A DNA stretch of 64,000 nt from Sphingorhabdus sp. 109 (GTDB lineage Bacteria > Pseudomonadota > Alphaproteobacteria > Sphingomonadales > Sphingomonadaceae), in NCBI RefSeq assembly GCF_902506555.1, contig NZ_LR732707.1, positions 2,193,290 through 2,257,289 on the forward strand, read 5' to 3'. Below the pieces are notes generated by a model. It searched no databases, was not told the DNA's origin, and was given only the letters and a program-made list of their open reading frames with translations. This document shows positions 22,795 to 43,865 of the stretch, one piece after another (the first letter of the stretch is position 1; each line of letters opens with the position of its first letter). The position numbers and the translations under genes were made by a program.

Positions 22795-22903
22795 ATATCG
22801 CGCCCATAGTCTGGTAACCGGACCCGCCAGCGCCGCTCGAACCAAAGACGCGCGTTTCGGTTCGCCTTTTTTCTGCTGGTATAATAGACTGACAACGGTA
22901 TAG

Positions 22904-22915: not shown

Positions 22916-22935
22916 ATTATGGGTAGTGAATTTCA

Positions 22936-28161: not shown

Positions 28162-28520
28162 GCGACGCAGCATTTGACTGGATGGCGGCAGCCAACAAAA
28201 AGGCCAAGGGCAAGCGACCTGAATATTTTGCGAACCCCGAAGACGACAGAATGCTGTCAATCCTGATGGCGGTGGTCGGTGAGGTTTCGGTGCTGCGCGA
28301 ACGGATGGACACGGTCGAACGGTTGCTGGAAACCAAGGGCGCGATTTCGCGGGACGATATCGAAAACTATGTCCCAGACAAGCAGGCCGCCTATGAGCGC
28401 GGCGCGATGATCCGCGAATATATTTACCGTGTCATGCGCGGCCCGCACCAGATGGTAGATGAGCTGCGGCAGGCCGAGCCGCCGGTGGAAGACATCAGCC
28501 GGGAACTCAGGAGAATCTGA
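28158..28520 (+). CDS. Hypothetical protein with coiled-coil character
   Basis: A 120-residue soluble protein, unrecognised. It is rich in charged residues, with a likely coiled coil at about 35-62 (MAVVGEVSVLRERMDTVERL) and a second helical stretch around IREYIYRVMRGPHQ. The GTG start overlaps the methyltransferase stop codon, so the two products may interact. It is the last gene of the 22936-28520 operon and converges with the membrane-protein gene ending at 28536. Confidence 0.7.
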   Translation: MSDAAFDWMAAANKKAKGKRPEYFANPEDDRMLSILMAVVGEVSVLRERMDTVERLLETKGAISRDDIENYVPDKQAAYERGAMIREYIYRVMRGPHQMVDELRQAEPPVEDISRELRRI

Positions 28521-28535: not shown

Positions 28536-29228
28536 CTAGAAGGGCTTTACGGCTCCGAGGAAGCATACACCGGAAATTGTAATCCAGTAGATATAGGCGG
28601 AAATACGCGCTTGGGCGATTTCTCTTTCGAGTGCAGCTTCCTCCACCGCATCTGGACCTTGGGCCAATATCCGGAACCGTTCTGTCCAGCGCCGCATGAC
28701 GAGCCGCAGGAACAGACCTATACAGAGTGCGAAGGCATAAAGTGCCATTTTGGCCGGATACCAGTGGTTTCCTTCACCCGATTCAATCGGTCCAGCGCCT
28801 TGGAAGGCCATGAACGAAACGACGAACAACCCGAGGATCAAGGGATAGCGCAATTTTTCCTCGAGCATGGTAACGGTGATCCCGATATCGGTCTCGCGCT
28901 TGATAAATGCCGTCCAGGTCATCGCCAGCCAGATCGCAAAGAACAACCACATCCACCAGATACCGGCACCTTCAAGCAGGGGTACAAAGCCATAAAGCTT
29001 GCCCATGTGAAGACCCAGCGGAAGCAACAGGACAATGCCGGTGCGCGCCAATATGTCGATGCGGTAGGCGGTTTCCATGTGCCGCTTGCGCTCTTCGAGA
29101 GAAAGATTGCGGTTTGTGACGTTATAGCTGGTCTGGAACACACCCCATTCCCCGCCGAGCCAATATACCATCGCCAGAATATGTACCCAGCGTAAAATGC
29201 TCAGTTCATTCACGGTCAGAAATTCCAT
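28536..29228 (-). CDS. Small integral membrane protein, paralogue of the one at 22005
   Basis: A 230-residue membrane protein with about six hydrophobic segments. His16, W23-L-G and G29-V-F31 line up residue for residue with the 22005 protein, and both end FLGxxKP plus an aromatic. Acidic residue 27 is Glu here and Asp there. A longer in-frame start exists, but the ATG at 29228 gives the shared N-terminus. The paired genes flank the 22936-28520 operon and each sits behind an operator copy, so they may form a heterodimer or serve two oxidoreductases. Confidence 0.8.
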   Translation of the reverse strand: MEFLTVNELSILRWVHILAMVYWLGGEWGVFQTSYNVTNRNLSLEERKRHMETAYRIDILARTGIVLLLPLGLHMGKLYGFVPLLEGAGIWWMWLFFAIWLAMTWTAFIKRETDIGITVTMLEEKLRYPLILGLFVVSFMAFQGAGPIESGEGNHWYPAKMALYAFALCIGLFLRLVMRRWTERFRILAQGPDAVEEAALEREIAQARISAYIYWITISGVCFLGAVKPF

Positions 29229-29266: not shown

Positions 29267-29284
29267 AATTTGTCCGGACAAATT
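29267..29284. promoter_or_regulatory. GntR-family operator, copy 6 (perfect 18-base palindrome)
   Basis: AATTTGTCCGGACAAATT, the best copy, symmetric over all 18 bases. It lies in the divergent gap between the leftward membrane-protein gene and the rightward gene at 29338. Confidence 0.85.
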
Positions 29285-29337: not shown

Positions 29338-30066
29338 ATGAAGCATCGCATCATCGAAGGGCGCCTCGAATATACCTCGCGCAAACCGGAAATGCAGGGC
29401 CAGAACCGTGGCTTTGAGACATTCATGTTCACGCGCCATGGGGACGGCAAGGTGACGATGCGCGCACATTGCGAAATTTACGAACCGGAGCCGACGGTCA
29501 TGCGCGACATCATCTATGCGCTCGATGAAAAGGACCAGCCGATGGACCTGCATGTCCGGCTGACGGTCGGCGATGCTTTCATGGGGTCCGGCTGGATGCG
29601 TTTTGATGGCAGCCATATCGAGATGGAAAGTTACGGCCCCTCGATCGGTCGCCTCTCGCAGCGGGTGGAAGCGCAGCTGCCGCTAACCGGCTTTGGCACC
29701 CATCCCATCGTTTCCGACGGCTATATGCTTGCCCTTCAGGACTGGGAGACGCAGGATAAGCGACTGCTCAATTGTTATTTACCCTCCCCCGATCATCGCG
29801 GCGCAACGCCGCCGCAAATCGCGCAGGTGAAGATCGGTGCCGTCTATCTGGGCAAGGAAGAAGTGACGGTGGCAGCCGGAACCTTTGCCTGCAAGCATCT
29901 GCAATTTGTCGATGATGCCAGTATCGTTCCGGGAACGGGCGGCATGGCCGGCGAACACCCGCCCTACGACGTCTGGATCACCGACGACGAGGATGGCATC
30001 TTTGTCCAGGGCGGGGTCGGCGGCTATATGATGACCTGGTATGAACTGGTGGATCTGAAGCGCTGA
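29338..30066 (+). CDS. Hypothetical protein, DUF3108-like beta-rich
   Basis: A 242-residue protein with no signal peptide and a strongly beta-rich pattern. The segment VTVAAGTFACKHLQFVDD followed by DVWITDDEDGIFVQ resembles the closing strands of DUF3108-like proteins, in which an xxGxFxxxH/xxxW pattern recurs. I do not recognise a function. AAGGAGAAA precedes the ATG. It is a single-gene unit behind operator 6, converging on the oxidoreductase gene ending at 30164. It might bind or modify a hydrophobic intermediate. Confidence 0.68.
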   Translation: MKHRIIEGRLEYTSRKPEMQGQNRGFETFMFTRHGDGKVTMRAHCEIYEPEPTVMRDIIYALDEKDQPMDLHVRLTVGDAFMGSGWMRFDGSHIEMESYGPSIGRLSQRVEAQLPLTGFGTHPIVSDGYMLALQDWETQDKRLLNCYLPSPDHRGATPPQIAQVKIGAVYLGKEEVTVAAGTFACKHLQFVDDASIVPGTGGMAGEHPPYDVWITDDEDGIFVQGGVGGYMMTWYELVDLKR

Positions 30067-30163: not shown

Positions 30164-31186
30164 TCAGTCCATGCGGATCAGAATTTTGCCGAAATGCGAA
30201 CCGCTTTCCAGATGATGGAATGCGTCCGGCGCATCACCGAAGGAGAATTTCCTGTCCACGGGATTGCGAATGCCATGTTTCGCGACAACGGCCACCGCTG
30301 CGGCCGTCATCGCCCGGCTGCCAGAAGCGAGTCCCTTGATCGTTATATTCTTGCCGATCATTGCGCCCTGACTGGCGCTGGCGGTAGCCTGCGGTGTACC
30401 AGACAGGGCGCCCAACGTGCCGATACGACCATTGACCGCCGTAGCTGCCACCGTCTCGCCCAGGGCCGGAAAGCCCAGCGTGTCGACGACGACGTCGGCA
30501 CCACGGCCTTCGGTCTGTTCGAGCATTGCGGCTGCCCAGTCCGGTCGATCGCGATAGTTGATGACATAGTCGGCCCCCATTTCCTTCGCCCGCGCCAGTT
30601 TTTCCTCACTGGATGATGTGATCGCGAATTCGGCACCGAGAGCCTTTGCCAGCTGCAGTGCAAAAATCGACACGCCGCCCGTCCCCTGGGCGAGCACCAG
30701 CTCTCCCGGTTCGACCGCACCGAATGCCACCATCGCGTGCCACACCGTGCCCGCGACAACCGCCAGTGACGCGGCCGTCTGCTCGTCGACCTCCGTGGGC
30801 AATCTTATCGCCGCACTGGCTGGCAGGGTTATTTTCTCGGCCAGCCAGCCATCGGCAGTGACGCCCAGATCGGCCGCAAAAATAGCATAATTATAGGGAC
30901 CGTCGATCCAGTTGACGAAATGCGGCGCAATCACCCTATCACCGACCTGAAATTGTGAAACATCTTCCCCAACGGCTTCGACCACGCCCACACCGTCGGA
31001 CAGGGGGATGCGATGCGGAGGCAGATCTCTGCCATAGTCGCCACGTAACACCATGAGATCGCGGTGATTGAGACCCGTTGCTGTCACCCGGAGACATATT
31101 TCGCCAAGGCCGGCTACCGGGTCGGTCCGCTCCGCCATACGCAATCCTTCAATCCCGGTGCGCCCGCCAATTTCCCAAACCTTCAT
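30164..31186 (-). CDS. Zinc-independent NAD(P)-dependent MDR oxidoreductase
   Basis: A 340-residue medium-chain dehydrogenase/reductase of the quinone oxidoreductase type. It has TATGLNHRDLMVLRGDY (N-terminal catalytic domain), GDRVIAPHF and the nucleotide-binding VLAQGTGGVSIFALQLA. The usual structural-zinc cysteines are absent. It may oxidise an alcohol or reduce an enone. As last gene of the leftward operon 35110-30164, next to the aldehyde dehydrogenase gene, an alcohol-to-aldehyde-to-acid sequence is possible. Confidence 0.86.
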   Translation of the reverse strand: MKVWEIGGRTGIEGLRMAERTDPVAGLGEICLRVTATGLNHRDLMVLRGDYGRDLPPHRIPLSDGVGVVEAVGEDVSQFQVGDRVIAPHFVNWIDGPYNYAIFAADLGVTADGWLAEKITLPASAAIRLPTEVDEQTAASLAVVAGTVWHAMVAFGAVEPGELVLAQGTGGVSIFALQLAKALGAEFAITSSSEEKLARAKEMGADYVINYRDRPDWAAAMLEQTEGRGADVVVDTLGFPALGETVAATAVNGRIGTLGALSGTPQATASASQGAMIGKNITIKGLASGSRAMTAAAVAVVAKHGIRNPVDRKFSFGDAPDAFHHLESGSHFGKILIRMD

Positions 31187-31189
31187 AAA

Positions 31190-32632
31190 TCATGCTCCTT
31201 TGCGCAAAGCCGCAAACTTATCCTCGGAAAAATCCTGAATTCGCGCCGGCTCCGCCGTCTGGCGCATGAACGCCTGTTTACGGAAAAAGCGGGTGATCCC
31301 GCTTTCCCCCATGCGCGAGGGGCCCATACCCGACATCTTGAAACTCGAATTCTCGGCATCCCAGACCATCGCGGTCATGGAACCGTCGTTAATCGAAATG
31401 GCGCCCGCTTCCAGCCGTGCGCCGACTTTTTCGGCCTCTTCGGCTGTTCCCGCCAGCACAGCGGCGGACAGTCCATAGATAGAATCATTGGCCTGCGCGA
31501 TCGCGTTGCCGACGTCATCAAACGGGATCACCGGTAACACGGGTCCGAAACTCTCGTCACGGACAACGGCCATGTCTGGCGTGACATCTGCGAGCACGGT
31601 CGGACGCAAATAGGTCCCGCCGCCCAGTATTTCCACTGTTCCGCCGGTCAATATCCGCGCACCTTTTGATTCCGCTTCGGCGAGTTGCTCGGCAATCTTC
31701 TGCCCTTGCGGCGCAAATATGAACGGTCCGATTTCACCCTGATTTATATCGGGATAGTTGAGCCGCACCTTTTCTGCTTCCGCGACCAGCGTTTCGAGAA
31801 ACTTGTCATAGATCGGCCGTGCAATATAGAGCCGTTCGATCGACTGGCAGGCCTGCCCCGTCGCCAATATGCTTGCCCGCAACGCGGTTTTCGCTGCCTC
31901 GACAGGATCTGCACTGGCCAGAATGAGCATCGGATCCTTGCCGCCCAGTTCGAGATTGGCGGGGATAAAAGCTTCGGCCGCCGCCACGGCGACTTTCCGG
32001 CCAGTTGCTACAGAGCCGGTAAAGCACACATAATCGACATTGGCGACCAGCGCCTGTCCTGTTGCGGCGTCGCCAACGATGATTTCCAGTATCTTCGCTA
32101 GTTCGGGCACCTCGGCAATGCTTGCCTTGAGCGGTTCGACAAATCGTGGAGTGATTTCGGACGGTTTTATGAGCGCCGCACAGCCCGCAAAGAGCGCCGG
32201 TATGGCATCGATGGTGCTGAGCGTCATCGGGAAGTTCCAGGGTGCGATTGCCCCGAACAGCGGAAAAGGAACCAGCCGTGTGCTGTTGACGATTGTCGGA
32301 TTGGATGATGGAACATCCATCGGAGAATGATTAGCGATTATATCGGGAGCTTGTGCCGCCCAGCGCCGGATGGTGCCCGGCACACCGCCGACCTCCATCG
32401 CAGATATTCCGGCCCTGCCGGTATCGATTGTCAGCTGCTCAATGATTGCGCCTGCATGTTTCTCGATCGCATCGGCCCAGCGCAGCATGATCGCGCTGCG
32501 TTCGGCAATCGGCATAGCGGCCCATGCAGGCTGATTAGTGCGGAGGCGAGCTGCTGCGGCAGCCACGTCCTGAGCATCCATCGGCTGGATTTGATAGTCC
32601 AGCTCACCGGTGCGGGGGTTTCGTATTTTCAT
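31190..32632 (-). CDS. Aldehyde dehydrogenase family protein
   Basis: A 480-residue NAD(P)-dependent aldehyde dehydrogenase. The catalytic Glu lies in NLELGGKDPMLIL, the catalytic Cys in ATGQACQSIERLYI, and the C-terminal DESFGPVLPVIPFDDV is typical. The subgroup with CQSIER rather than CxxxxR resembles succinate-semialdehyde-type enzymes. The ATG at 32632 overlaps the stop of the PuuE-like gene (ATGA). Probably oxidises an aldehyde intermediate to the acid. Confidence 0.88.
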   Translation of the reverse strand: MKIRNPRTGELDYQIQPMDAQDVAAAAARLRTNQPAWAAMPIAERSAIMLRWADAIEKHAGAIIEQLTIDTGRAGISAMEVGGVPGTIRRWAAQAPDIIANHSPMDVPSSNPTIVNSTRLVPFPLFGAIAPWNFPMTLSTIDAIPALFAGCAALIKPSEITPRFVEPLKASIAEVPELAKILEIIVGDAATGQALVANVDYVCFTGSVATGRKVAVAAAEAFIPANLELGGKDPMLILASADPVEAAKTALRASILATGQACQSIERLYIARPIYDKFLETLVAEAEKVRLNYPDINQGEIGPFIFAPQGQKIAEQLAEAESKGARILTGGTVEILGGGTYLRPTVLADVTPDMAVVRDESFGPVLPVIPFDDVGNAIAQANDSIYGLSAAVLAGTAEEAEKVGARLEAGAISINDGSMTAMVWDAENSSFKMSGMGPSRMGESGITRFFRKQAFMRQTAEPARIQDFSEDKFAALRKGA

Positions 32633-33552
32633 TGTTGTGCGTCCCAATTGTCAATTATCGTGTCGCCGCGGGAAAACCCGATGTCCGGGCGCTCGGCAAA
32701 GTCTGCAATCAATCTTTCGAACGCGGCAATGCGGTAGGGCAATCCCATGATATAGGGGGTCAGATGCATCGGCATCATCCGGCCGCCAGACGTTTCCGCT
32801 TCGCCGATCAGCCAGTTGGCCGCATCGGTCATCTGTTGTGTATAGCTGTCGACGGATTGTTGCTGGACGTTGATGATCTGGCGATCGGACAGTTCATGGT
32901 TGAGCGGCAGATTGGTAATCGGGCCCGCTTCGGTTTGGAAAGCGTAAGGCAATTCATCATTCACCCAGTCGCACATGTAATCGACGCCCGCTTCTACCAG
33001 CAGCCTCGCGGTATGGAAACTCTGCGACCGTGCAATCGAAAGCCAGCCACGCGGACGCGTTCCGGTGGCTTTTTCCAGTGCGTCGAGCGAGCGAATGATC
33101 AGGATACGTTCTTCTGCCACATCCATGCCGCTAGCGATGGTACCGTTCATATCGGTACTGTGCGCGATAATCTCATGCCCGCCGGCCACGATATCCCTGA
33201 TGAGCTCGGGATAGCGTTCGGCAATGACACTGTTGATTGCAACGGATATCCGCGCCCCGACCTTTTCAAATGCTCCGAGCAGCCGGTAGATGCCGATGCG
33301 CGTACCATATTCCCGCGCGGTATAGTGCCGATAGTCGGGATAGGCGGTCTGCATATGCCCCGGCGCCCGGAACGGATCGTCACTCGGAACCATCGGAAAA
33401 TATTCAAGACTGATGACCGGCCAGACCAGCAGTTTCTTGGCATCCGGCCATTGCAGCGGTTTGCGCTCGAAAAAATTTGAATAGGGATAATAGTCATGGT
33501 CCATCCCGCGACGGCGTTTGGGATATTCCAGATATGCTGGATCGAGGCTCAT
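32629..33552 (-). CDS. PuuE-like polysaccharide deacetylase-fold hydrolase A
   Basis: A 307-residue NodB-fold protein of the PuuE/imidase side of the family. The middle motif is GHEIIAHSTDMNG, where other deacetylases have a metal-binding HSxxH; the later RPRGWLSIARSQSFHTARLL and DWVNDELPY blocks match PuuE-type enzymes. No signal peptide, so cytoplasmic. It is only distantly similar to the neighbour at 33549, and the two start-stop overlaps (ATGA) suggest equal production, perhaps of a two-component hydrolase. A cyclic amide or imide is the probable substrate class. Confidence 0.8.
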   Translation of the reverse strand: MSLDPAYLEYPKRRRGMDHDYYPYSNFFERKPLQWPDAKKLLVWPVISLEYFPMVPSDDPFRAPGHMQTAYPDYRHYTAREYGTRIGIYRLLGAFEKVGARISVAINSVIAERYPELIRDIVAGGHEIIAHSTDMNGTIASGMDVAEERILIIRSLDALEKATGTRPRGWLSIARSQSFHTARLLVEAGVDYMCDWVNDELPYAFQTEAGPITNLPLNHELSDRQIINVQQQSVDSYTQQMTDAANWLIGEAETSGGRMMPMHLTPYIMGLPYRIAAFERLIADFAERPDIGFSRGDTIIDNWDAQQ

Positions 33553-34433
33553 GCTATCTGCTCCCGGAAACGGTCAACGATATCGCCTGCTCTCGTTATC
33601 CAGGCCCGGCCATCCGCGGCAATATGTTCGAGCACGGATTCAAACGCCCCTATGCGGTGGGGCTGCCCGATCAGATAGCTGTGCAGCGGAATGCACATGA
33701 CCGTTCCCGACTGCTCCCCGTCATCGGCCAGCCGGTCATATTGACGGATCAGCGTATCTGCATATTCGCGCGGTGACATGTTATATATGAAGAAGCCATA
33801 ATGGTCATTGACTTCCAGACTATAGGGAATGGCGGTCAGGTTGCCCGACTTCACCTTCACATCGGTCGGCTGATCGTCGTGATAGAGATCGCAGGTATAG
33901 TCGAGTCCATATTCGGCGATCAGGTCGAGCGTGCGCGGGGTATGGGTTAGCGCCGGCGCCAGCCAGCCCCTGATCCGCTGACCGGTTGCGCGTTCTACCG
34001 TTGCTATACTGTCCTCGATAATTGCGCGTTCCTGCGCTTCGTCCATACCGTAGCTGTAACGGGTGTTGTAAATGCCATGGCTGAAAAACTCCCAGCCGCG
34101 CTGGCGGGCATCCTCCACGACTTCCGGGATATGATCGCAAAGCGCCACCGAAAGACTGACCGATCCGGGAAACCCGTGTTTTGTCATCATCTCGGCCATA
34201 CGCCAGTGCGACACGCGGTTCGCATGGTCGCGGTGGGCGTAGCCAACCACATCGGGATGTGGCTTGGCCCAGCTTTTGCGGTGCGGGTTGACCGCCGGAT
34301 CCAGCTCGTAAAATTCCAGATTGGGCGCCACCCATACCGCACAGGTTTTGCCATCCGGCCATTCAATCGCCGGCCGGTTCCGGTAGGGTAGATAATCGTA
34401 GAGGCCGGGATCGGCTTTTTGTGCGTTGCTCAT
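33549..34433 (-). CDS. PuuE-like polysaccharide deacetylase-fold hydrolase B
   Basis: A 294-residue NodB-fold protein. Motifs: VWVAPNLEFYELDP near residue 33, GWEFFSHGIYNTRY in the middle, RIRGWLAPALTHTPRTLDLI and DLYHDDQPT. It lacks a signal peptide. The pair A/B follows a cysteine amidohydrolase gene (34430) in the same operon. In pathways known to me, imidases open a cyclic imide to a half-amide that a separate amidase then hydrolyses, so this order suggests ring opening and deamidation. Confidence 0.8.
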   Translation of the reverse strand: MSNAQKADPGLYDYLPYRNRPAIEWPDGKTCAVWVAPNLEFYELDPAVNPHRKSWAKPHPDVVGYAHRDHANRVSHWRMAEMMTKHGFPGSVSLSVALCDHIPEVVEDARQRGWEFFSHGIYNTRYSYGMDEAQERAIIEDSIATVERATGQRIRGWLAPALTHTPRTLDLIAEYGLDYTCDLYHDDQPTDVKVKSGNLTAIPYSLEVNDHYGFFIYNMSPREYADTLIRQYDRLADDGEQSGTVMCIPLHSYLIGQPHRIGAFESVLEHIAADGRAWITRAGDIVDRFREQIA

Positions 34434-35110
34434 CGTCCCTCCAGCCAGTCGATCACCGTCTGCACCGGCTCAACATCGGCATATTTGACCTGCAAATCGG
34501 TGAGATTGGCGAAATGGTAGCTTTCGTGTTTGTCCGCGCAGGTTTCGATCGGCACGATTGTGCGGTAGCCATGGCTAAGCGCGTCCACCGCCGTTGCCCG
34601 GACGCACCCCGACGTGGAACCGCCAGTGACCACAACGGTATCGACCTTGTGCCAGACAAGATAGCTCGCCAGCGGCGTTTCGAAAAAGGCGCTTGGCATC
34701 CGCTTGGTATATTGCAGATCATCGGCACCGACGTCGCAACGCGGATCCAGCTTGTGCCGCTCGCTGTCATATTTGATATTTTGCAGCGAGTCTTCGGTAT
34801 CGGTGCGCGTTCCCCAAATACCGGCATCTGCAGCATCATCCTTATAGGCCACCCGACTCCAGATCACCGGCATGCCCTTCGCCCGCGCGCCAGCCGAGAT
34901 CTGATTGATATAATCGATCTGCTTCGGATCGGTTTCGTAGGCAGTCTTGAACATGTCAGTGCGGGTATAAGCCTGTTGCACATCGACATTCACGATCGCC
35001 AGCTTTTCGCCGAAACCAAATTTCTTGCGTGCCGGGTTGGCGATGAGTTCCTCGAAAATTTCTCTCGCTGTGCGACCATCTTCGACCATTTTTGTACCAA
35101 TAAGCGTCAT
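34430..35110 (-). CDS. Isochorismatase-family cysteine amidohydrolase
   Basis: A 226-residue cysteine hydrolase with the full triad: Asp43 (IVNVDVQQAY), Lys136 (YTKRMPSAFFET) and Cys169 (TGGSTSGCVRATA). The SGCVRATA form is that of N-carbamoylsarcosine amidase and maleamate amidase (NicF) relatives, which hydrolyse amides or ureides. First gene of the leftward operon 35110-30164, 63 bases from operator 7. Release of ammonia from a half-amide, for instance a substituted maleamate, is the role I favour. Confidence 0.88.
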   Translation of the reverse strand: MTLIGTKMVEDGRTAREIFEELIANPARKKFGFGEKLAIVNVDVQQAYTRTDMFKTAYETDPKQIDYINQISAGARAKGMPVIWSRVAYKDDAADAGIWGTRTDTEDSLQNIKYDSERHKLDPRCDVGADDLQYTKRMPSAFFETPLASYLVWHKVDTVVVTGGSTSGCVRATAVDALSHGYRTIVPIETCADKHESYHFANLTDLQVKYADVEPVQTVIDWLEGR

Positions 35111-35172
35111 TGTCTTTCTACTCCAGGATCGGAAAAAGCATCTTAATCAGAAGAAAAAGCTTGTCGAGACAT

Positions 35173-35188
35173 ATTTGTCCGGACAAAT
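35173..35188. promoter_or_regulatory. GntR-family operator, copy 7
   Basis: ATTTGTCCGGACAAAT, a perfect 16-base palindrome, nine bases before the rightward hydrolase start and about 63 bases before the leftward amidohydrolase start. TTGTCG at 35161 could be a -35 box for the rightward promoter, placing the operator over the spacer and the -10 box. Confidence 0.82.
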
Positions 35189-35196
35189 TAGGATTT

Positions 35197-36570
35197 ATGA
35201 TCACACGCCATTTTATAGACGTCGTAACCAACGGCACCAAACGTCGCGTTCATTATCGCGTGGCAGGTGTTGGGCCACCAATGCTCATGGTACATCAGAG
35301 CCCCCGCAGCTCGAAAGAATATGAGCCCCTGATGCAGAAATGGGCAAGTCATTTCACCTGTATCGCGCCTGACACGCCGGGTTTCGGGCAATCCGATTCT
35401 CTGCATGGCCGTCCTGAAATCGATGAATATGCGGATGCGCTGGTGGAATTTCTCGACACGCTGGGCGTAAAAAAATGTGCCGCATACGGCTTCCACAGCG
35501 GCGGGATCATCCTCGTATCGGCCCTGAAACGTCATGCGAATCGCTTCACGACACTGGCAATTGGCGGCTATGCGATCTGGACGCCTGAAGAGCAGAAACT
35601 GTTCGGCGAGAAATATCTACCGGAGTTTCATCCATCAAAATATGGCGAACATCTGATCTGGCTGTGGAACCGGATTTTGGAACAGACCTGGTTTTTCCCG
35701 TGGTTTGCCGCGGACGACAAACACCGGCTTTCGGTTGCCAATGATGACCCACAGCGAATCGATCTGATCGTTCGGGAAATGCTCTACGCGGGCAACGCCT
35801 ATCAGGCTGGCTATGGTGCCGTCCTGCGCGCAGCAAACGACATACCCGCGGTCAATGCGGATATGCCGCCATGCCTGATCAGCGCCTATGACGGCGACCC
35901 GCTACAAGCACATCTCGACCGCCTCGGCACCATGCCTTCGTCATGGTCCACCCGCAAGTTTGCCACGCCGGAGGAACATCAGACGGCCAGTCTGGCGCAT
36001 TTGCGGCAAAGCGAAACACCGGAAGCCGCGCATCTGAACGAGACGCAGGACGAAGGCTTCATTCATATCGAGACAAAATTGTTCAACGGGCTGGTGCATT
36101 GGCACGGTGACCGCGGTGCAGATCGGCTCCAGTTGCACGCTCCCGGTCAGGATAGTGGCTGCAATAACGAGGATGGCCGAGCCATCCATATCGACCTGCC
36201 GGGGCACGGGCTGTCGGATGACTGGATGGATGATGCGCCAACGGACTGGCAATCGTGGCAGGCCGTTGTCAATGCTTGCTTGTGCCATTTCGATGCGTCG
36301 GAAAGCATTTTTCCGGCATTGCCGAAAGGCGATCCCGAGAAACTTTACCCGGACCTGTCGCCAGATCGATTTGGCAATTATCTGACCATCGCCTGGCAGA
36401 TTGCGCGCGCGCGCAGGCTGTTTGAACCCTGGTATGAAGCCAATGCCGCTCATGCGATTTCCTTTGCTCCGGAAAGTCTGGCACCGGATCAACTGGCGCT
36501 AGACCATCTGGCGCTGCTGAACGCTCGCTCGGCCAAAGCCTATCATCTGGCGCTGGAGAGTCGATCATGA
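35197..36570 (+). CDS. Two-domain alpha/beta hydrolase-fold protein
   Basis: A 457-residue protein made of two alpha/beta hydrolase-like halves. The first has MVHQSPRSSKEYE, DTPGFGQSD and an elbow G98-F-H-S-G-G103 with His100 at the nucleophile position. The second half, from about residue 290, restarts with an IDLPGHGLSD block but shows no nucleophile elbow and looks degenerate. The ATG at 35197 has AGGA upstream; a longer frame would run through the operator. Overlaps the LeuC-like gene by ATGA. Its reaction is unknown; see the shared His-elbow finding. Confidence 0.8.
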   Translation: MITRHFIDVVTNGTKRRVHYRVAGVGPPMLMVHQSPRSSKEYEPLMQKWASHFTCIAPDTPGFGQSDSLHGRPEIDEYADALVEFLDTLGVKKCAAYGFHSGGIILVSALKRHANRFTTLAIGGYAIWTPEEQKLFGEKYLPEFHPSKYGEHLIWLWNRILEQTWFFPWFAADDKHRLSVANDDPQRIDLIVREMLYAGNAYQAGYGAVLRAANDIPAVNADMPPCLISAYDGDPLQAHLDRLGTMPSSWSTRKFATPEEHQTASLAHLRQSETPEAAHLNETQDEGFIHIETKLFNGLVHWHGDRGADRLQLHAPGQDSGCNNEDGRAIHIDLPGHGLSDDWMDDAPTDWQSWQAVVNACLCHFDASESIFPALPKGDPEKLYPDLSPDRFGNYLTIAWQIARARRLFEPWYEANAAHAISFAPESLAPDQLALDHLALLNARSAKAYHLALESRS

Positions 36571-37946
36571 CCGGCGAACGAACCCTGTTTGACAAGCTGT
36601 GGGACAGCCATGTGGTCGCCGAATTGCCCGGAGGGAGCGCGCTTGTCGCGATCGACCGGGTGTTTTTGCATGAGCGGACAGGTGCCGCTGCACTGAATTC
36701 CTTGGCTGAGGCGGGACGCAAAGTGGCCGATCCATCCCGGGTTTTCGCTGTCACCGATCATATCGTTGATACCCGGCCGGGGCGGACGGACCAGACGCTT
36801 ATGCCCGGGGGGCAGGCCTTTATCACAGAGACAAGAGCGGCGGCCAAGGCTGCGGGGATCACGCTGTTTGACGTGAATGATCCCGATCAGGGGATTGTCC
36901 ATGTGATCTCTCCGGAGCTCGGTATTGTTCTGCCGGGCTGCACCCTGATCGCACCGGACAGCCATACCTGCACGCAAGGGGCCTTTGGCGCACTGGCGTG
37001 GGGCATCGGGTCGTCGGAGGCGGAACATGCCATGGCAACCGGCACTTTGCGGTTGAGCAAGCCAAAGGCAATGCGGGTCAGATTTACCGGGCGGTTGAAC
37101 AAAGGCATCACGCCCAAAGACATGATATTGACGCTGCTGGCGCAATATGGCGCTGCGGGCGGCAAGGGCCATGCTGTGGAGTTTGCCGGCGAAGCGGTTT
37201 TGGCGCTCGATATGGAAGGGCGGATGACTCTCTGCAATATGGCAACCGAATTTTCTGCGATGTCCGGCTTCATCGCGCCAGACCAGCAAACGTTCGATTA
37301 TCTCGAAGGCCGCCGCTACGCCCCCGAAGGCACACAATGGCGACAGGCCTTGGCAAGCTGGCAGGAGCTGGGCAGCGATGCCGGCGCAGTCTTCGATCAG
37401 GAGATCGAAATTGACGCGAGCTCTATCACGCCGATGGTCAGCTGGGGAACCAATCCAGGCCAAACCATTGGCATAGATGCTGTGGTTCCCGATGATGCCG
37501 AAGCAGCGCCGCTCGACTATATCGGTCTTGCCAGAGGCCAAGCAATCAAGGGCGTGCCCATCGACGCTGCTTTTATCGGCAGTTGCACCAACAGCCGCCT
37601 GTCCGACTTGCGCCGCGCTGCAGCCCTATTGCAGGGACGGGAAATTGCCGATGGGGTTAAAGCGATTTGCGTTCCGGGATCTTCCAGGGTCAAACGCGAA
37701 GCGGAAGCGGAAGGCTTGGACCTGATATTCGAGAATGCCGGATTTGAATGGCGCGAAAGCGGCTGTTCCATGTGCTTTTATGCGGGCGGCGAAAGTTTTG
37801 CCGCGGGATCGCGGGTGATCTCGACGACCAACCGCAATTTCGAAAGCCGGCAGGGGCCGAATGTCAGAACCCATATCGCCAGTCCCGAAACGGTGGTTGC
37901 GAGCGCTATCGCCGGCATGATTGCGGATCCGGGGGAACTGATCTGA
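36567..37946 (+). CDS. LeuC-like aconitase-family hydro-lyase, large subunit
   Basis: A 459-residue 4Fe-4S hydro-lyase subunit very like LeuC. It shows TLFDKLWDSHVV at the start, PDSHTCTQGAFGALAWGIG, and cluster ligands in FIGSCTNSRLSDL and GCSMCFYAGG. LeuC normally continues with AMN after the CSMC motif, so the active-site loop differs. Relatives hydrate citraconate, dimethylmaleate or isopropylmalate pairs. With the small subunit encoded next, a (substituted) maleate-malate interconversion is likely. It lies outside any leucine operon: no leuA or leuB is present. Confidence 0.88.
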   Translation: MTGERTLFDKLWDSHVVAELPGGSALVAIDRVFLHERTGAAALNSLAEAGRKVADPSRVFAVTDHIVDTRPGRTDQTLMPGGQAFITETRAAAKAAGITLFDVNDPDQGIVHVISPELGIVLPGCTLIAPDSHTCTQGAFGALAWGIGSSEAEHAMATGTLRLSKPKAMRVRFTGRLNKGITPKDMILTLLAQYGAAGGKGHAVEFAGEAVLALDMEGRMTLCNMATEFSAMSGFIAPDQQTFDYLEGRRYAPEGTQWRQALASWQELGSDAGAVFDQEIEIDASSITPMVSWGTNPGQTIGIDAVVPDDAEAAPLDYIGLARGQAIKGVPIDAAFIGSCTNSRLSDLRRAAALLQGREIADGVKAICVPGSSRVKREAEAEGLDLIFENAGFEWRESGCSMCFYAGGESFAAGSRVISTTNRNFESRQGPNVRTHIASPETVVASAIAGMIADPGELI

Positions 37947-38563
37947 TGGCCGAACCTTTCACTATCCTGACTTCCCTGCCGATGCCGCTGATCCGCGACA
38001 ATATCGACACCGATCAGATCATTCCCTCCCGCGAGATGAAAAGCACCGGCAAGACCAGTCTGGCCGACGGACTATTTGCCGGCTGGCGCTACAAGGAGAT
38101 CGGCGGGCGCGAGCCCGATCCCGAATTCGTCATGAATGATCCGGCCTATGCCGATAGCACAGTCATCTTGGGCGGCGCCAATTTCGGTTCTGGATCGAGC
38201 CGCGAACACGCCGTCTGGGCGCTCGCCGAATATGGCTTCCGCGCGGTGATTGCGCAAAGTTTCGCCCCTATTTTCGCTGGAAACTGCGTGCGCAACGGCA
38301 TATTGCCGGCGATGCTGGATTCCGCTGCTATAACAGCCGTTGAACGGTCAGGTGCGCCGGTCACCATCGATCTGCAAGCCCGGACCATCAGCATTGCCAG
38401 CGGCCAGAGCTGGACCTTCCCGATCGAGGAAGAAGCCAAGGCTATGTTGCTGGAAGGGCTGGACGCGATCGATCTCAGTCTGAAACTGGCTGACAATATT
38501 AGCACATGGCAGGATGCGGACCGCAGCGCCCGCCCGTGGATATATTTAGGAGTAAATACATGA
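37946..38563 (+). CDS. LeuD-like aconitase-family hydro-lyase, small subunit
   Basis: A 205-residue small subunit of the LeuD type. DNIDTDQIIPSREMK is the swivel-domain start, GANFGSGSSREHAVWAL the substrate-binding loop, and SFAPIFAGNCVRNGILP the following block. The loop sequence FGSGSSREHA is that of isopropylmalate-type enzymes. Its ATG overlaps the large-subunit stop codon (TGATG), and its own stop overlaps the lyase start (ATGA). It forms the heterodimer with the protein encoded at 36567. Confidence 0.88.
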   Translation: MAEPFTILTSLPMPLIRDNIDTDQIIPSREMKSTGKTSLADGLFAGWRYKEIGGREPDPEFVMNDPAYADSTVILGGANFGSGSSREHAVWALAEYGFRAVIAQSFAPIFAGNCVRNGILPAMLDSAAITAVERSGAPVTIDLQARTISIASGQSWTFPIEEEAKAMLLEGLDAIDLSLKLADNISTWQDADRSARPWIYLGVNT

Positions 38564-39492
38564 CCCAATCCGTGACAATCAGCGAAGTGGGTCCGCGCGA
38601 CGGCTTGCAAAGCGTGGACCGCGTAATGGCGACGGATGCGAAAAAAGCGTGGATCAAGGCCGAAGCCGAAGCCGGCGTTTCGGAAATCGAGGTTGGCAGC
38701 TTCGTCCCGCCCGCCTTGCTTCCACAAATGGCCGATACGGCGGAAATTGTCGCCTTCGCGAAGACAATTCCTGATCTTGATGTTGTCGCTCTGGTTCCGA
38801 ACCTTAAAGGAGCCGAACGCGCCATCGCTTGTGGCGCTGACAAGATTTCCATCCCTTTTTCCATGTCGGAGACCCACTCGATCAAGAATGTCCGCAAGGA
38901 TCATGCCGCGATGCTAGCCGAGATCAAGGCGATTGCCGATCTGGTGGCGCAACAGCCGGAAGGCGCGCGGCCGCATTTTGAAGTTGGCCTGTCTACCGCT
39001 TTCGGCTGCACGCTGGAGGGGCCCCTTCCCGATGACCAGATCGTCCGCCTCGCAGTCGCCGCCATGGAGGCCGGTGTTGCCGAATGCGGCCTGTCGGACA
39101 CCACCGGCTATGCCAATCCCGCGCAGGTGACAAGACTGGTGCGCAAGGTAAAGGCGGCGATTGGAGACGATAAGCTCAATACGCTGCATCTCCACAATAC
39201 CCGTGGCCTCGGTCTCGCAAATGTCATGGCGGGTCTGGCAGAAGGGATCACCACGTTTGACAGCTCGCTTGGCGGACTCGGCGGCTGTCCGTTCGCCCCG
39301 GGCGCATCTGGCAATATCGTGACGGAAGACCTGGTCTTCATGCTGGAAGCCATGGGCATTGATACCGGCATCGATCTGAAAAAACTTCTGAAGGTGCGCG
39401 ACATCGTCGCCGAAGCCCTTCCCGGCGAACCCTTATACGGCTTTACACCCGACGCCGGCCTCCCTCTTGGATTTACGAAAGCAGCAGCATGA
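38560..39492 (+). CDS. HMG-CoA lyase-like CoA-ester lyase
   Basis: A 310-residue TIM-barrel lyase of the HMG-CoA lyase family. The metal/catalytic start ISEVGPRDGLQ, the HLHNTRGLGLAN His pair and the GGLGGCPFAPGASGN loop with the reactive Cys are all intact. The family cleaves 3-hydroxy-3-substituted acyl-CoAs, such as HMG-CoA or citramalyl-CoA. After hydration by the LeuCD-type enzyme and CoA transfer, a substituted malyl-CoA would be the expected substrate. The ATG at 38560 is chosen by overlap with the LeuD-like stop. Confidence 0.9.
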   Translation: MTQSVTISEVGPRDGLQSVDRVMATDAKKAWIKAEAEAGVSEIEVGSFVPPALLPQMADTAEIVAFAKTIPDLDVVALVPNLKGAERAIACGADKISIPFSMSETHSIKNVRKDHAAMLAEIKAIADLVAQQPEGARPHFEVGLSTAFGCTLEGPLPDDQIVRLAVAAMEAGVAECGLSDTTGYANPAQVTRLVRKVKAAIGDDKLNTLHLHNTRGLGLANVMAGLAEGITTFDSSLGGLGGCPFAPGASGNIVTEDLVFMLEAMGIDTGIDLKKLLKVRDIVAEALPGEPLYGFTPDAGLPLGFTKAAA

Positions 39493-40664
39493 CCCAACCG
39501 ACACCTCTGGCAGGCCTTAAAGTTATCGAATTCACCCATATGGTCATGGGCCCCACGGTCGGAGCGATTCTCGCTTCGCTGGGAGCGGAAGTGGTCCGCG
39601 TCGAACCGATCGGCGGCGATCGCACCCGCAATCTCGTCGGTTCCGGCTCCGGTTATTTTCCGATGTATAACCGCCACAAGCAGAGCATCGCGCTTAATCT
39701 CAAGGATAGTGCGGGACTAGATATCGCCAGAAAACTGGTCGCTGAGGCTGATATCTTGATTGAAAATTACCGGCCTGGCGCGATGGACCGGCTAGGACTG
39801 GGCTATGATAGCCTGTCCGAGGACAATGATCGTCTGATCTATTGTTCGGAAAAGGGCTTCCTGCCGGGTCCCTATGAAAACCGCACTGCGCTGGACGAGG
39901 TTGCCCAGATGATGGGCGGCCTTGCCTATATGACCGGCCCTCCGGGCCAACCCCTGCGCGCCGGCTCCAGCGTAATCGACGTCACCGGAGGCATGTTCGG
40001 TGTCATCGCAATTCTCTCCGCCGTCGAGGAACGGCATCGCACCGGCAAAGGCCAGAAGGTGCAAAGCTCGTTGTTCGAAACCACGGTCTATTTGATCGGC
40101 CAGCATATGGCGCAGAAAGCGGTAACCGGCAAAGCCGCCGATCCGATGCCCGCGCGTATTTCCGCCTGGGCGATCTACGATGTATTCCAGACAAAAGATG
40201 ATCCCATTTTCATCGGTGTCGTGACCGATGCGCTGTGGGAAAAATTCTGCAAGCTTTTCTCGCTCGACGAACTCTGGGCGGACGAGAGTATCCGTGAAAA
40301 TAACAATCGTGTTGCGGCGCGCGACCGTATCATGCCGCAAATCCGCGAACTGATTGCAACCTACAAACGCGACGATCTGATCGCCCTGCTCGATGGCACC
40401 GGCCTGCCATTTGCGCCGATCGCTCGGCCAGAGGACATGTTCGAGGATCCGCATCTCAATGCAAGCGGCGGACTGGAAGCCGTGACCCTAGCCAATGGTA
40501 CCGAAACAAAACTCCCGGCCCTGCCGATCGAAATGAATGGCAGCCGTCCTTCGGCACCGGCGAAACTGAAGGAAGAGGGCGCTGATACCGCGTCGATTCT
40601 GCTCGACCTCGGTTTTGCCGACGACCAGATCGCCACCTTGCGCTCGAATGGCGCGGTCCAATGA
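39489..40664 (+). CDS. CaiB/BaiF (class III) CoA-transferase
   Basis: A 391-residue class III CoA-transferase, the third in the island. GLKVIEFTHMVMGPTVGAIL is the first block, and the catalytic Asp lies in AGSSVIDVTGGMFGV. It overlaps the lyase stop codon by ATGA and closes the rightward operon. In this setting it probably charges the malate-like acid with CoA, using succinyl-CoA or the acyl-CoA product as donor, so the lyase can cleave it. Confidence 0.88.
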   Translation: MTQPTPLAGLKVIEFTHMVMGPTVGAILASLGAEVVRVEPIGGDRTRNLVGSGSGYFPMYNRHKQSIALNLKDSAGLDIARKLVAEADILIENYRPGAMDRLGLGYDSLSEDNDRLIYCSEKGFLPGPYENRTALDEVAQMMGGLAYMTGPPGQPLRAGSSVIDVTGGMFGVIAILSAVEERHRTGKGQKVQSSLFETTVYLIGQHMAQKAVTGKAADPMPARISAWAIYDVFQTKDDPIFIGVVTDALWEKFCKLFSLDELWADESIRENNNRVAARDRIMPQIRELIATYKRDDLIALLDGTGLPFAPIARPEDMFEDPHLNASGGLEAVTLANGTETKLPALPIEMNGSRPSAPAKLKEEGADTASILLDLGFADDQIATLRSNGAVQ

Positions 40665-41066: not shown

Positions 41067-42095
41067 ATGCCAGCTTCCAAAAAGCGGGCCACGATTGTTG
41101 ATGTCGCAACGGCTGCAAATGTCTCGATGAAGACCGTTTCCAGAGTCTTCAACGACGAGCCCCATGTCCGGAAAGTCTTGCGCGACAAGGTTCTGAAAGC
41201 CGCGGAAGAACTCGACTATTATCCCAATATCATAGCACGCGGACTGGTCGGTCGCCGGTCCTACCTGCTCGGCCTGATCTACGAGAATCCCAGCCCCAAC
41301 TATGTGGTGGAACTGCAACGCGGCGCTCTCGATCGTCTGCATGGAGAAAAATACCGTCTGCTTGTGCTGCCGGTGGAATCGGTGGCAAAGGTCTCGGACA
41401 AGATAATGAACATCTTGCGAGCCGCCGCTCTGGACGGAGTGATCCTGACCCCGCCCGCTTCCGATCATCCTCAGGTGCTTGATGCGCTGACCCGTCACAA
41501 TTTCCCTTTTTCCCGCGTTGCCCCTACTGGATCTCTCGAAGTTGGACCCAGCCGGACAACCGATGATGTCGAGGCGTCGCGAAAGGTGACCGCCTATCTG
41601 CTAGAGCTCGGCCATCGCCGTATTGGCGTGATAAAAGGCGACCCGGCCCATCCTTCCAGTAGCGCCAGGCTGAACGGATTTCTCGATGCACTGAAGGCAG
41701 CGGGTGTCTCCCATTCGCCCGATCTCGTGGAACAGGGATATTATACATATGAATCCGGTCTTGCTGCGGCGCATAAATTGCTCGATCGGCCCGACCGACC
41801 GACCGCGATTTTCGCCCAGAACGACGACATGGCGGCCGCAGCTATCATGGCGGCAAGAGACCTTGGCCTTAACGTACCCGATGATGTCTCAATCGCCGGA
41901 TTTGATGACAGCGCCATCGCGCAGATCGTCTGGCCGCGTATCACTACCGTGCACCAGCCAGTCTATGACATGGCCCGCAGCGCAACCGACGCGCTGATCG
42001 CGAAGCTAGAGAACAAGACTTATGATAATCTCGAAACCCACGCCTGCGAATTGATCATCCGGCAATCCACGGCACCGCCTGCCAGCCGTCCGTGA
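41067..42095 (+). CDS. LacI-family transcriptional regulator
   Basis: A 342-residue LacI/GalR regulator. Residues about 8-30 are the helix-turn-helix (TIVDVATAANVSMKTVSRVF) followed by the hinge; the rest is a periplasmic-binding-protein-like sensor with AQNDDMAAAAIMAARDLGL and DDVSIAGFDDSAIA. Members sense sugars or sugar phosphates. It precedes a broken sugar symporter and the Entner-Doudoroff operon, so it probably regulates uptake and catabolism of a hexose or disaccharide. Confidence 0.9.
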   Translation: MPASKKRATIVDVATAANVSMKTVSRVFNDEPHVRKVLRDKVLKAAEELDYYPNIIARGLVGRRSYLLGLIYENPSPNYVVELQRGALDRLHGEKYRLLVLPVESVAKVSDKIMNILRAAALDGVILTPPASDHPQVLDALTRHNFPFSRVAPTGSLEVGPSRTTDDVEASRKVTAYLLELGHRRIGVIKGDPAHPSSSARLNGFLDALKAAGVSHSPDLVEQGYYTYESGLAAAHKLLDRPDRPTAIFAQNDDMAAAAIMAARDLGLNVPDDVSIAGFDDSAIAQIVWPRITTVHQPVYDMARSATDALIAKLENKTYDNLETHACELIIRQSTAPPASRP

Positions 42096-42217
42096 TCAAG
42101 CGCCGCGAACGTCTGAGCTACACCGCCGGCGACTTGGGATTCAATCTCGTCTGGCAATCCATCGAGCTTTATCTGCTCTTCTTCTATATCCAATTTTTGC
42201 GATCATTCTGCTGCTAA
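42092..42217 (+). pseudogene. Truncated GPH-type sugar:cation symporter
   Basis: A GTG overlapping the LacI stop (GTGA) opens a 41-residue frame reading RERLSYTAGDLGFNLVWQSI and then a hydrophobic stretch. This is the N-terminus of glycoside-pentoside-hexuronide symporters, which normally have about 450-500 residues. The frame stops at 42217. The following 185 bases up to zwf read partly hydrophobic in another frame (VADAGGLAASLIVP) and may be a remnant of the C-terminus. A large internal deletion is the simplest reading. Confidence 0.7.
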
Positions 42218-42401
42218 CCGGCGTGGTCGCGGATGCCGGCGGCCTGGCGGCATCACTGATCGTGCCGATAGACTGTTACGCCGTCATCGCAAGCTATGGC
42301 CTCTATGCGGCCCGCCGATTGATTTCCGGCAGCAGGATGAGGGCCGTTGTCGCCTGCCACTCCTGCTGGTACAGGTGCCATTTGATAGACGGGGAAATAT
42401 T

Positions 42402-43865
42402 GTGACCAAAACGTCAGACAATAGCGGCATTTCATCCCGATTGCTGCTGTTCGGAGCAACCGGAGATCTGGCGAAACGCATGCTCCTGCCATCGCTCTTT
42501 GCCTTGCACGAAGATGGCCTGATCGCCTCTGATCTGCGAATCGTCGGGACCGCACGCAGCGATATGTCGGACGAACAGTTTCGGCAGCTGGCGGCCCAGG
42601 CCCTGTCGGAATATCTGCCGGAAGACCGCAAGGGCAATGGCGAACTGCAATCCTTTCTGGAACGATTATCCTACCAGCCGCTGGATGCAACACAGAGCGA
42701 CGGCTTCTCCGCGCTTTCCGCCAAGCTTGGCGATATAACCGGTGGTCTCGCAATATTCCTGTCCACTGCGCCATCACTGTTCGAAGCGACGATTGCCGGG
42801 CTGAAGTCTGCCGGGCTGACAGGCGACCTTGTCCGTATCGGCCTGGAAAAGCCGCTCGGCCATGATCTGGAAACATCGGGTCTGATCAATGATGCGGTCG
42901 CCGCGGCTTTCACCGAAGACCAGACCTTCCGCATTGATCATTATCTTGGCAAGGAAACGGTCCAGAACCTGATGGCCCTGCGCTTTGCCAATATGATGTT
43001 TGAACCGTTGTGGAATGCCAACGGCATCGACCATATCGAAATCACCGTATCGGAAACGGTCGGGCTGGAAGGCCGTCACGGCTTCTACGACGATACCGGA
43101 GCTCTACGCGACATGGTCCAGAACCATATGCTGCAGCTGCTGGCACTCACCGCCATGGAAGCGCCGGCCAGTCTGGATGCGACATCCATCCGCGACGAAA
43201 AGGTGAAAGTACTGCGCAGCCTGCGGCCGGTCAGCGCCGAAGAAATGGTACGCGGACAATATGGCGCCGGAGCGGTCCATGGCAAAGCGGTCGGCAGCTA
43301 TGCCGATGATTTTGGTGCAGATTCCGACACCGAGACATTCGTCGCGATCAAGGCGCATGTCGATAACTGGCGCTGGCAGGGCGTGCCCTTTTACCTGCGC
43401 ACCGGCAAACGCCTGTCCGAGCGCCGCAGCGAAATCGTCATCCAGTTCAAATCGGTCCCGCATAATATTTTTGCCGAACGTGGTGGTCGGCTCAATGCCA
43501 ACCGCCTGGTCATCCGCCTGCAGCCCGAGGAATATGTCCGCCTGCAGGTGATGGCCAAGGAACCCGGTCTCGACCGCGACGGCATGATATTGCGCGAAGT
43601 GCCGCTGGATCTGTCCCTCTCGCAGGCCTTTTCCAAGGCGCGCAAGCGTATCGCCTATGAACGCCTGCTGCTCGACCTGATCGACGGCGATCCGACCCTG
43701 TTCGTGCGCCGCGATGAAGTGGAGGCGCAGTGGCGCTGGGTCGATGCCATCCGCAAGACATGGGACAAAGAGGAAATGACACCCAAATCCTACGGCGCGG
43801 GAAGCTGGGGACCGTCTGCGGCAATTGCCCTGACCGAACGCGACGGGGTGAGTTGGCATGAGTGA
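42402..43865 (+). CDS. zwf: Glucose-6-phosphate 1-dehydrogenase
   Basis: A 487-residue glucose-6-phosphate dehydrogenase: NADP+-dependent oxidation to 6-phosphogluconolactone, first step of the Entner-Doudoroff route. FGATGDLAKRMLLPSL is the dinucleotide-binding loop and FRIDHYLGKETVQNLMALR the active-site signature with the catalytic His. I chose the GTG at 42402 because GGGGAAA precedes it; a GTG 27 bases upstream is in frame. It overlaps pgl by eight bases and starts a five-gene operon. Confidence 0.95.
   Translation: MTKTSDNSGISSRLLLFGATGDLAKRMLLPSLFALHEDGLIASDLRIVGTARSDMSDEQFRQLAAQALSEYLPEDRKGNGELQSFLERLSYQPLDATQSDGFSALSAKLGDITGGLAIFLSTAPSLFEATIAGLKSAGLTGDLVRIGLEKPLGHDLETSGLINDAVAAAFTEDQTFRIDHYLGKETVQNLMALRFANMMFEPLWNANGIDHIEITVSETVGLEGRHGFYDDTGALRDMVQNHMLQLLALTAMEAPASLDATSIRDEKVKVLRSLRPVSAEEMVRGQYGAGAVHGKAVGSYADDFGADSDTETFVAIKAHVDNWRWQGVPFYLRTGKRLSERRSEIVIQFKSVPHNIFAERGGRLNANRLVIRLQPEEYVRLQVMAKEPGLDRDGMILREVPLDLSLSQAFSKARKRIAYERLLLDLIDGDPTLFVRRDEVEAQWRWVDAIRKTWDKEEMTPKSYGAGSWGPSAAIALTERDGVSWHE

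Follow-up and report, generated by a model that had tools for sequence, protein, structure and literature searches.

In the lower part of nicotinate fermentation, dimethylmaleate hydratase DmdAB and 2,3-dimethylmalate lyase act one after the other, and the lower part of the aerobic nicotinate (nic) pathway is run by NicD, NicF and NicE. Microbial cyclic-imide metabolism, described for Blastobacter and Pseudomonas, uses an imidase and then a half-amidase; we know of no module of a LeuCD-type hydro-lyase and a lyase for it. Mesaconyl-coenzyme A (mesaconyl-CoA) and citramalyl-CoA steps are familiar from the RipABC itaconate pathway. Here we analyse a pair of divergent operons at positions 30164-40664 of a 64,000-nucleotide stretch (the window) of the Sphingorhabdus sp. 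109 genome, whose features are collected in Table 1.

We consider it moderately probable that these operons form a cyclic-imide catabolic module under one operator, which would lead from an imide through a half-amide, a maleate-type acid and a malate-type acid to a 2-oxoacid and an acyl unit. PDA1, a PuuE-like hydrolase aided by its partner PDA2, would open a substituted maleimide-type ring without a metal, and the isochorismatase-like protein ISOC would free ammonia from the half-amide. The LeuC- and LeuD-type subunits (LeuCD) would then hydrate the resulting cis-dicarboxylate to a 2-hydroxy (malate-type) acid, to which the class III CoA-transferase CoAT1 would attach CoA. HMGL, of the 3-hydroxy-3-methylglutaryl-CoA (HMG-CoA) lyase family, would split this ester into a 2-oxoacid and an acyl-CoA, and in some related loci a PrpB/dimethylmalate-lyase-like enzyme may perform the last step on the free acid. 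What we show are the genes with their conservation and linkage, the shared operator, the folds and the active-site residues; all substrates and reactions, and contact between PDA1 and PDA2, are inferred.

With nicotinate fermentation, the proposed route shares a LeuCD-type hydration of a substituted maleate followed by cleavage, and some relatives carry a lyase of the superfamily to which dimethylmalate lyase belongs. It differs in that the maleate would come from an imide by way of PuuE-like and isochorismatase-fold enzymes, and in that the cleavage in the window would fall to a CoA-transferase and HMGL. Like the nic pathway, it has an amidase of the isochorismatase fold, and some relatives add a maleate-isomerase-family protein; unlike in that pathway, a PuuE-like ring opener would take the place of the dioxygenase and deformylase, and hydration with cleavage that of isomerisation to fumarate. 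The first two reactions would in principle be those of imide metabolism in Blastobacter and Pseudomonas, a likeness drawn by description and not by imidase sequence.

A scan of genome contigs with PDA1 yielded 373 relatives. Our locus counts refer to the best 80 of these, with gene presence judged in the fetched stretch of each relative (stretches that must be told apart carry L numbers). All six of ISOC, PDA2, HMGL, LeuC, LeuD and CoAT1 stand beside PDA1 in 64 of the 80 loci; singly, ISOC is present in 80, PDA2 in 79, HMGL in 70, LeuC and LeuD in 67 each (68 each at other cut-offs) and CoAT1 in 66. Three of the ten loci without HMGL (L025, L034 and L066) are short or cut stretches. There are two layouts, with HMGL on the strand opposite to PDA1 (40 loci) or on the same strand (30 loci). 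Among 149 family genomes, one of which is the window's own, PDA1 (E <= 1e-60) is found in 28 and HMGL (E <= 1e-100) in 25, and all 25 HMGL carriers also have PDA1 (Fisher p ~2e-25); across the phylum, PDA1 occurs in 11 of 398 genomes. A TcuA-like flavoprotein is encoded in nine of the 80 loci and a maleate-isomerase/arylmalonate-decarboxylase-family protein in four. The genes named in a preliminary description, made from the letters of the window, are all where it placed them, and PDA1 with six others in 64 of 80 loci is a set beyond chance. Three genes within 30164-40664, those for an alcohol dehydrogenase-like protein (ADH), an aldehyde dehydrogenase (ALDH) and an alpha/beta hydrolase (ABH3), lay outside its scheme.

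The case for an imide as substrate starts from PDA1. According to an excerpt of PMC10967932, the allantoinase PuuE has neither the Asp residues of MT1 nor the second His of MT2, retains the MT4 Asp and MT5 His, and does not depend on a metal; in an excerpt of PMC3084791 its substrate is termed a small cyclic imide. The AlphaFold2 (AF2) model of PDA1 (mean pLDDT, the predicted local distance difference test score, 83.1; residues 49-64 below 50) has PuuE itself, 3cl6, as its best structure match (Z 32.2, root-mean-square deviation 2.6, 282 aligned). It is followed by 1z7a, 3s6o, 3rxz and 3qbu at Z 31.8 to 27.9, whose titles name them (putative) deacetylases of polysaccharide or peptidoglycan; the highest-ranked chitin deacetylase comes at Z 20.3. 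Residues E40, H119, N123, D182, D210 and H251 of PDA1 are invariant in 87 of 87 alignment rows, which therefore all show the PuuE pattern, with Asn123 in place of the second MT2 His and His251 at MT5. The Asp-His-His metal triad of CE4 deacetylases is broken in both hydrolases, the second His being Asn in PDA1 (87/87) and Met in PDA2 (76/77), and the tandem Asp at MT1 of the CE4 pattern is missing from the pair. In fold and in both His positions PDA1 is thus like PuuE; unlike PuuE, it is paired with PDA2 in 79 of the 80 loci and lies far under the cut-off of the PuuE equivalog model TIGR03212 (111.2 bits, and 93.5 for PDA2, against 424.6), so that neither protein is filed as an allantoinase.

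By alignment, only PDA1 has the full PuuE-type residue set in the window, where PDA2 departs from the pattern with Thr at MT5. This position is Thr in 73 of 77 PDA2 rows, mostly from close relatives; His stands there in L093, L094 and L101, and Ser in L098. A tree built from 61 rows (the window and 27 fetched loci) separates PDA1 (100/95) and the operon PDA2 (98/91) into two clades of 28 rows, to each of which the same 28 places contribute a single row; several PDA2 rows sit on much longer branches, and three rows labelled PDA2 by best match fall outside both clades, as do two rows of PDA3, the third PuuE-like protein. At the 28 places PDA1 retains the first MT2 His and the MT5 His throughout (28/28), whereas PDA2 retains both in five (L100, L101, L126, L127 and L128), shows Thr 18 times, His 7, Ser 2 and Gln 1 at MT5, and has lost the first MT2 His in four. 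These counts point to what is probably one imidase with a degenerating partner rather than two imidases. In our reading the two derive from an old duplication and work as a pair, in which PDA2 would have lost catalytic residues more than once; we infer a PDA1-PDA2 heteromer. Of the two ring openers originally assumed, PDA1 keeps its catalytic-type residues, but PDA2 is not its equivalent, having lost a catalytic-type His in the window's lineage.

The enzymes proposed for the later steps also keep their active-site residues. ISOC has the N-carbamoylsarcosine amidase (1.1e-27) and 3ot4 (1.1e-21), presumably NicF, as PDB relatives, and retains an Asp-Lys-Cys triad (Asp43 in 90 of 91 rows, Lys136 and Cys169 in 91 of 91) at what we take to be the triad positions of the isochorismatase-fold amidase family. 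The cluster cysteines of LeuC are kept (C340 in 79/79 rows, C400 and C403 in 78/79), and the LeuD loop PSRE[M/I] is seen in 73 of 88 rows: all 73 at at least 51% identity and none of the 15 below. The genome has a separate LeuCD in C2:1876500-1884500, with a LeuC 47% identical to that of the module and a LeuD among the 15 rows without this loop. The other copy and the loop difference speak against a role of the module LeuCD in leucine biosynthesis, which seems unlikely, although its LeuC and LeuD score above 3-isopropylmalate dehydratase cut-offs. R15, D16, H212, H214 and C245 of HMGL, which we take to be the HMG-CoA lyase catalytic residues, are present in 74 of 74 rows. CoAT1 reaches the cut-off of none of the seven NCBIfam models listed for it, the best being succinate-glutarate CoA-transferase (231 bits vs 750).

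In six more distant stretches, LeuC, PDA1 and PDA2 are accompanied by a PrpB/dimethylmalate-lyase-like enzyme. This is the case in L094 (a Burkholderia plantarii plasmid), L100 and L101 (Rhizobium and Neorhizobium plasmids), L126, L124 (another stretch of the window's own genome) and an island of a distant genome, G090, covered by L127, L132 and L133; an HMGL match is absent from the fetched stretches of all of these. L092 and L097 have CoA-transferase and HMGL plus a second LeuCD with an isocitrate-lyase-family enzyme, and L128 together with L135 has both lyase kinds. The presence of two unrelated lyases among otherwise like gene neighbours suggests that the final cleavage acts on one kind of substrate, a malate-type acid. 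The logic of the imide-to-malyl-CoA route put forward in the preliminary description is thus backed by the conserved module, by PrpB-like lyases where no HMGL was found and by the TcuA-like and maleate-isomerase-family neighbours, but its hydrolases are not equivalent and the pathway is larger.

From the palindromic operator between the two operons it is 62 nt to the start of ISOC and 8 nt to the ATG of the alpha/beta hydrolase. At <=3 mismatches the window contains six such sites, against 0.29 expected in shuffles; at <=2 mismatches there are 12 sites genome-wide, 10 of them within C2:2180159-2228477. The sites mark an island of ~48 kb that starts ~13 kb before the window, in the upstream stretch L090. 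In 36 of the 80 closest loci, every one of them belonging to layout I with its 40 members, the operator core TTGTCCGGACAA occurs without mismatch; in 36 it is located <=250 nt upstream of ISOC. One divergent operon pair, the frame of the preliminary description, is confirmed in its genes but too narrow for the proposed pathway, since the single operator marks an island where a second module and another PuuE-like gene, the third, are also found.

The window's own genome has a second complete copy of the module, in L108 (53-83% identical), and a third in L124 with LeuCD, PrpB-like lyase, PDA1 and PDA2. L108, L124, L126, L128 and L133 do not contain the exact operator core. A relaxed operator pattern gives one match in L108 vs 0.26 expected, and this second copy shows no sign of control by the operator. 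Two further HMGL genes of the genome lie beside hydantoinase A/B and CoA-transferase genes, in clusters at L122:6352-12451 and L123:4972-11090; these clusters are another link of HMGL with ring-opening enzymes.

Several observations weigh against a cyclic-imide module as proposed here. The 80 loci, being close relatives, do not count as independent observations. L093 and L096 have PDA1, PDA2 and ISOC with no LeuC or lyase match, the annotation of L098 and L099 gives a PDA1/PDA2 pair without LeuC or lyase, and comparison of open reading frames (ORFs) finds PDA1 without either in L125, L129, L130 and L131, so that the ring opener may feed other routes too. The copy in L124 shows no ISOC or HMGL match, and CoA-transferase homologues of 27-30% identity occur in L124, L127 and L133, among the loci with the PrpB-like lyase. 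ISOC is closer to N-carbamoylsarcosine amidase than to 3ot4. HMGL scores above the NCBIfam HMG-CoA-lyase cut-off (PRK05692), LeuC scores over the cut-offs of two subfamilies and LeuD over that of leuD (3-isopropylmalate dehydratase); a change of substrate is thus unreadable from the profiles. Finally, loss of the late His from PDA2, which we tried as a rule and rejected, is not general: the rows with His among the 77 are distant ones, and 7 of the 28 tree rows keep it at MT5.

The ring could instead be a six-membered imide (2,6-dihydroxypyridine/glutaconimide, e.g. of a citrazinate-type acid), which we regard as rather unlikely; some other N-heterocycle is conceivable too. PDA1/PDA2 would here produce glutaconamate or aconitamide, ISOC would deamidate it, and LeuCD would act as an aconitase on the tricarboxylate before cleavage. 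The families of LeuCD and of the PrpB-like enzymes, aconitase and methylisocitrate lyase, would suit such a route, as would an FAD_binding_3 monooxygenase and a maleate-isomerase-family protein near a PDA gene in L024, L055 and L135, neighbours that resemble those of pyridine catabolism. The monooxygenase genes, however, are not in the window's operons, and with HMGL acting on plain HMG, LeuCD would be without the alpha-hydroxy carboxylate that aconitases bind. A hydantoin or ureide route appears distinctly unlikely. PDA1 would open hydantoin as PuuE opens allantoin, and ISOC would be an N-carbamoyl-amino-acid amidase, which agrees with their closest named relatives, PuuE and N-carbamoylsarcosine amidase, and with the HMGL and CoA-transferase genes that adjoin hydantoinase A/B genes elsewhere in the genome; its product, though, would be an amino acid, so that LeuCD, CoA-transferase and lyase, linked in 64 of 80 loci, are left without a role.

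That the PuuE-like proteins are sugar or peptidoglycan deacetylases, on which their neighbourhood is uninformative, is very improbable and was set aside on fold and metal residues: Pfam does call both Polysacc_deac_1, and the fifth-ranked structure, 3qbu (Z 27.9), is Helicobacter HP0310, reported in an excerpt of PMC3084791 as a peptidoglycan deacetylase by one test on crude peptidoglycan, although in purified form it acted on none of the compounds tried, among them allantoin, but the metal triad is broken, ISOC is linked in 80 of 80 loci, and the PDA1 model is nearest to PuuE and far from the first chitin deacetylase.

Beside the proposed cyclic-imide module, the island carries the second module on the minus strand. 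From 20921 to 15992 its order is CitE-like lyase, hydratase, acyl-CoA dehydrogenase and CoA-transferases, followed by the PrpD, AMP-binding, amidase, HapK-like, SDR and PDA3 genes. The hydratase scores 95.1 bits with Pfam MC_hydratase (cut-off 26.5) and 80.1 with MaoC_dehydratas, and the best PDB match of the CitE-like protein, 3qll, is presumably Yersinia RipC. Like RipABC, this module has CoA-transferase, mesaconyl-CoA-hydratase-like and CitE-like genes; unlike RipABC, it also has an acyl-CoA dehydrogenase, with PDA3, amidase and PrpD genes nearby. PDA3 is present in 19 of the 149 family genomes, 18 of which also have PDA1, within 40 kb in 11 of these 18. In the distant genome G090, L127 has SDR-PDA3-CitE-MaoC-ACAD (acyl-CoA dehydrogenase)-CoAT3-CoAT2 in this order at 40-68% identity, facing MFS, ISOC, PDA1 and PDA2, and L132 has homologues of LeuC, LeuD, ALDH, Nit2, FAD-oxidase, CopD-like and DUF3108-like proteins. 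At 0-3 mismatches L127 has two operator sites and L132 three, where 0.01 and 0.00 are expected; the site at L127:11684-11699 falls between the opposed gene sets, with MFS-ISOC-PDA1-PDA2 on one side and SDR-PDA3-CitE-MaoC-ACAD-CoAT on the other. The operator shared in G090 and the proximity of PDA1 and PDA3 in family genomes support, at the level of sequence, one regulon for both modules, in which the second module and PDA3 probably handle a saturated or isomeric partner product.

Table 1 Features of the window: the divergent operon pair, the second module, the candidate regulator and the operator sites.
Feature	Position	Strand	Basis or remark
ADH, zinc-type alcohol dehydrogenase/quinone reductase-like	30164-31186	-	Pfam ADH_N, ADH_zinc_N; near PDA1 in 17/80 loci
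ALDH, aldehyde dehydrogenase	31190-32632	-	Pfam Aldedh; near PDA1 in 37/80 loci
PDA2, PuuE-like partner without late (MT5) His	32629-33552	-	Pfam Polysacc_deac_1; NCBIfam PuuE below cut-off
PDA1, PuuE-like, presumed metal-independent cyclic-imide hydrolase	33549-34433	-	Pfam Polysacc_deac_1; AF2 model vs PuuE
ISOC, isochorismatase/N-carbamoylsarcosine-amidase-like, presumed half-amidase	34430-35110	-	PDB relatives, residues
Operator between the two operons, perfect 16-bp palindrome ATTTGTCCGGACAAAT	35173-35188		
ABH3, alpha/beta hydrolase	35197-36570	+	Pfam Abhydrolase_1; near PDA1 in 40/80 loci
LeuC-type 4Fe-4S hydro-lyase large subunit	36567-37946	+	Pfam Aconitase
LeuD-type small subunit, PSREM loop	37943-38509	+	Profile matches
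HMGL, HMG-CoA-lyase-family, presumed alkylmalyl-CoA lyase	38554-39492	+	NCBIfam PRK05692 277.6 vs cut-off 246
CoAT1, class III CoA-transferase	39489-40664	+	Pfam CoA_transf_3
PDA3, third PuuE-like protein	8086-8940	-	Pfam
SDR linked with PDA3	8952-9749	-	SDR-PDA3 order also in L127
HapK/REDY-like small protein (PF11639) beside SDR and PDA3	9752-10072	-	Also in L024, L128
Amidase, AMP-binding enzyme, two MmgE/PrpD proteins	10069-15207	-	
GntR/UTRA regulator, candidate binder of operator	15234-15986	+	Pfam GntR, UTRA
Two class III CoA-transferases, second module	15992-17074, 17079-18272	-	L127 homologues 51% and 56% identical
Acyl-CoA dehydrogenase, second module	18355-19542	-	L127 homologue 65% identical
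Mesaconyl-CoA-hydratase/MaoC-like, second module	19561-20070	-	L127 homologue 68% identical
CitE-like C-C lyase, second module	20073-20921	-	Pfam HpcH_HpaI; best PDB 3qll, 6e-49
Operator, 1 mismatch	975-990		
Operator, exact	20952-20967		
Operator, 1 mismatch	22902-22917		
Operator, exact	29268-29283		

It is unlikely, in our view, that the island serves tetrapyrrole or bilin breakdown, in which extracytoplasmic oxidation and hydrolysis would give substituted maleimides and succinimides that reach central metabolism through both imide modules (PDA1/PDA2-ISOC-LeuCD-lyase and PDA3-CoA-transferase-ACAD-hydratase-CitE). The pigment-derived substrate raised as a possibility in the preliminary description finds no backing among macrocycle openers, as the genome has no match to heme oxygenase (PF01126) or PaO (PF08417), the two kinds searched; for phototrophy, it has no PF00124 match. 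A DUF3598-like protein is encoded in 37 of the 80 loci, in several between ABH3 and LeuC, and in the window's own genome it lies upstream, at L090:5017-5568. For the L011 homologue a beta barrel is predicted (pLDDT 93.5), and the model matches BFA1 (Z 17.5), DUF3598 (15.5), nitrobindin and CpeS (~14), FABP (~11-12) and UnaG (11.3). Such a predicted calycin fold is compatible with bilin binding and not specific for it; calycins bind many ligands.

Other genes of the surroundings are recorded here. The VOC protein at 6421-7323, considered as a ring-cleavage dioxygenase, is not a canonical one, because no His is invariant among nine rows. About 10 kb before the window, at L090:6728-7732 (+), lies an aminotransferase class I/II ORF of 334 amino acids whose end looks shortened or frame-shifted. 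Two small membrane-protein-like ORFs without Pfam match, at 22005-22688 and 28536-29195 (-), have operators close by and stand opposite a DUF1838 protein (21025-21933) or an ORF with a DUF3108-annotated homologue (29338-30066). The stretch 26929-28520 (+) encodes a methyltransferase and a small protein without Pfam match, both of which have homologues close to the module in several relatives. A LacI regulator followed by glucose-6-phosphate dehydrogenase, 6-phosphogluconolactonase-family and ILVD/EDD-family genes at 41067-46310 (+) is probably a separate sugar (Entner-Doudoroff) cluster.

The module combines known enzyme families in a conserved combination that we did not find described in the literature searched. 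Searches on substituted maleimides and maleates, maleamate amidase, tetrapyrrole breakdown, citrazinic acid, cyclic imides and the HMG-CoA lyase site showed no description of this route among the matches listed, and the literature searched held no paper joining three of isochorismatase, polysaccharide deacetylase, 3-isopropylmalate dehydratase and CoA transferase. If our reading is true, sphingomonads and some other proteobacteria would possess a recurrent, unnamed route for the carbon and nitrogen of cyclic imides. The enzyme families that make it up usually bear the labels polysaccharide deacetylase, leucine biosynthesis and HMG-CoA lyase, and in the genomes that carry it such annotations would mislead. 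The module would also offer a concrete test of how PuuE-like enzymes moved on from allantoin, and of paired enzymes when catalytic residues are being lost from one of the two.

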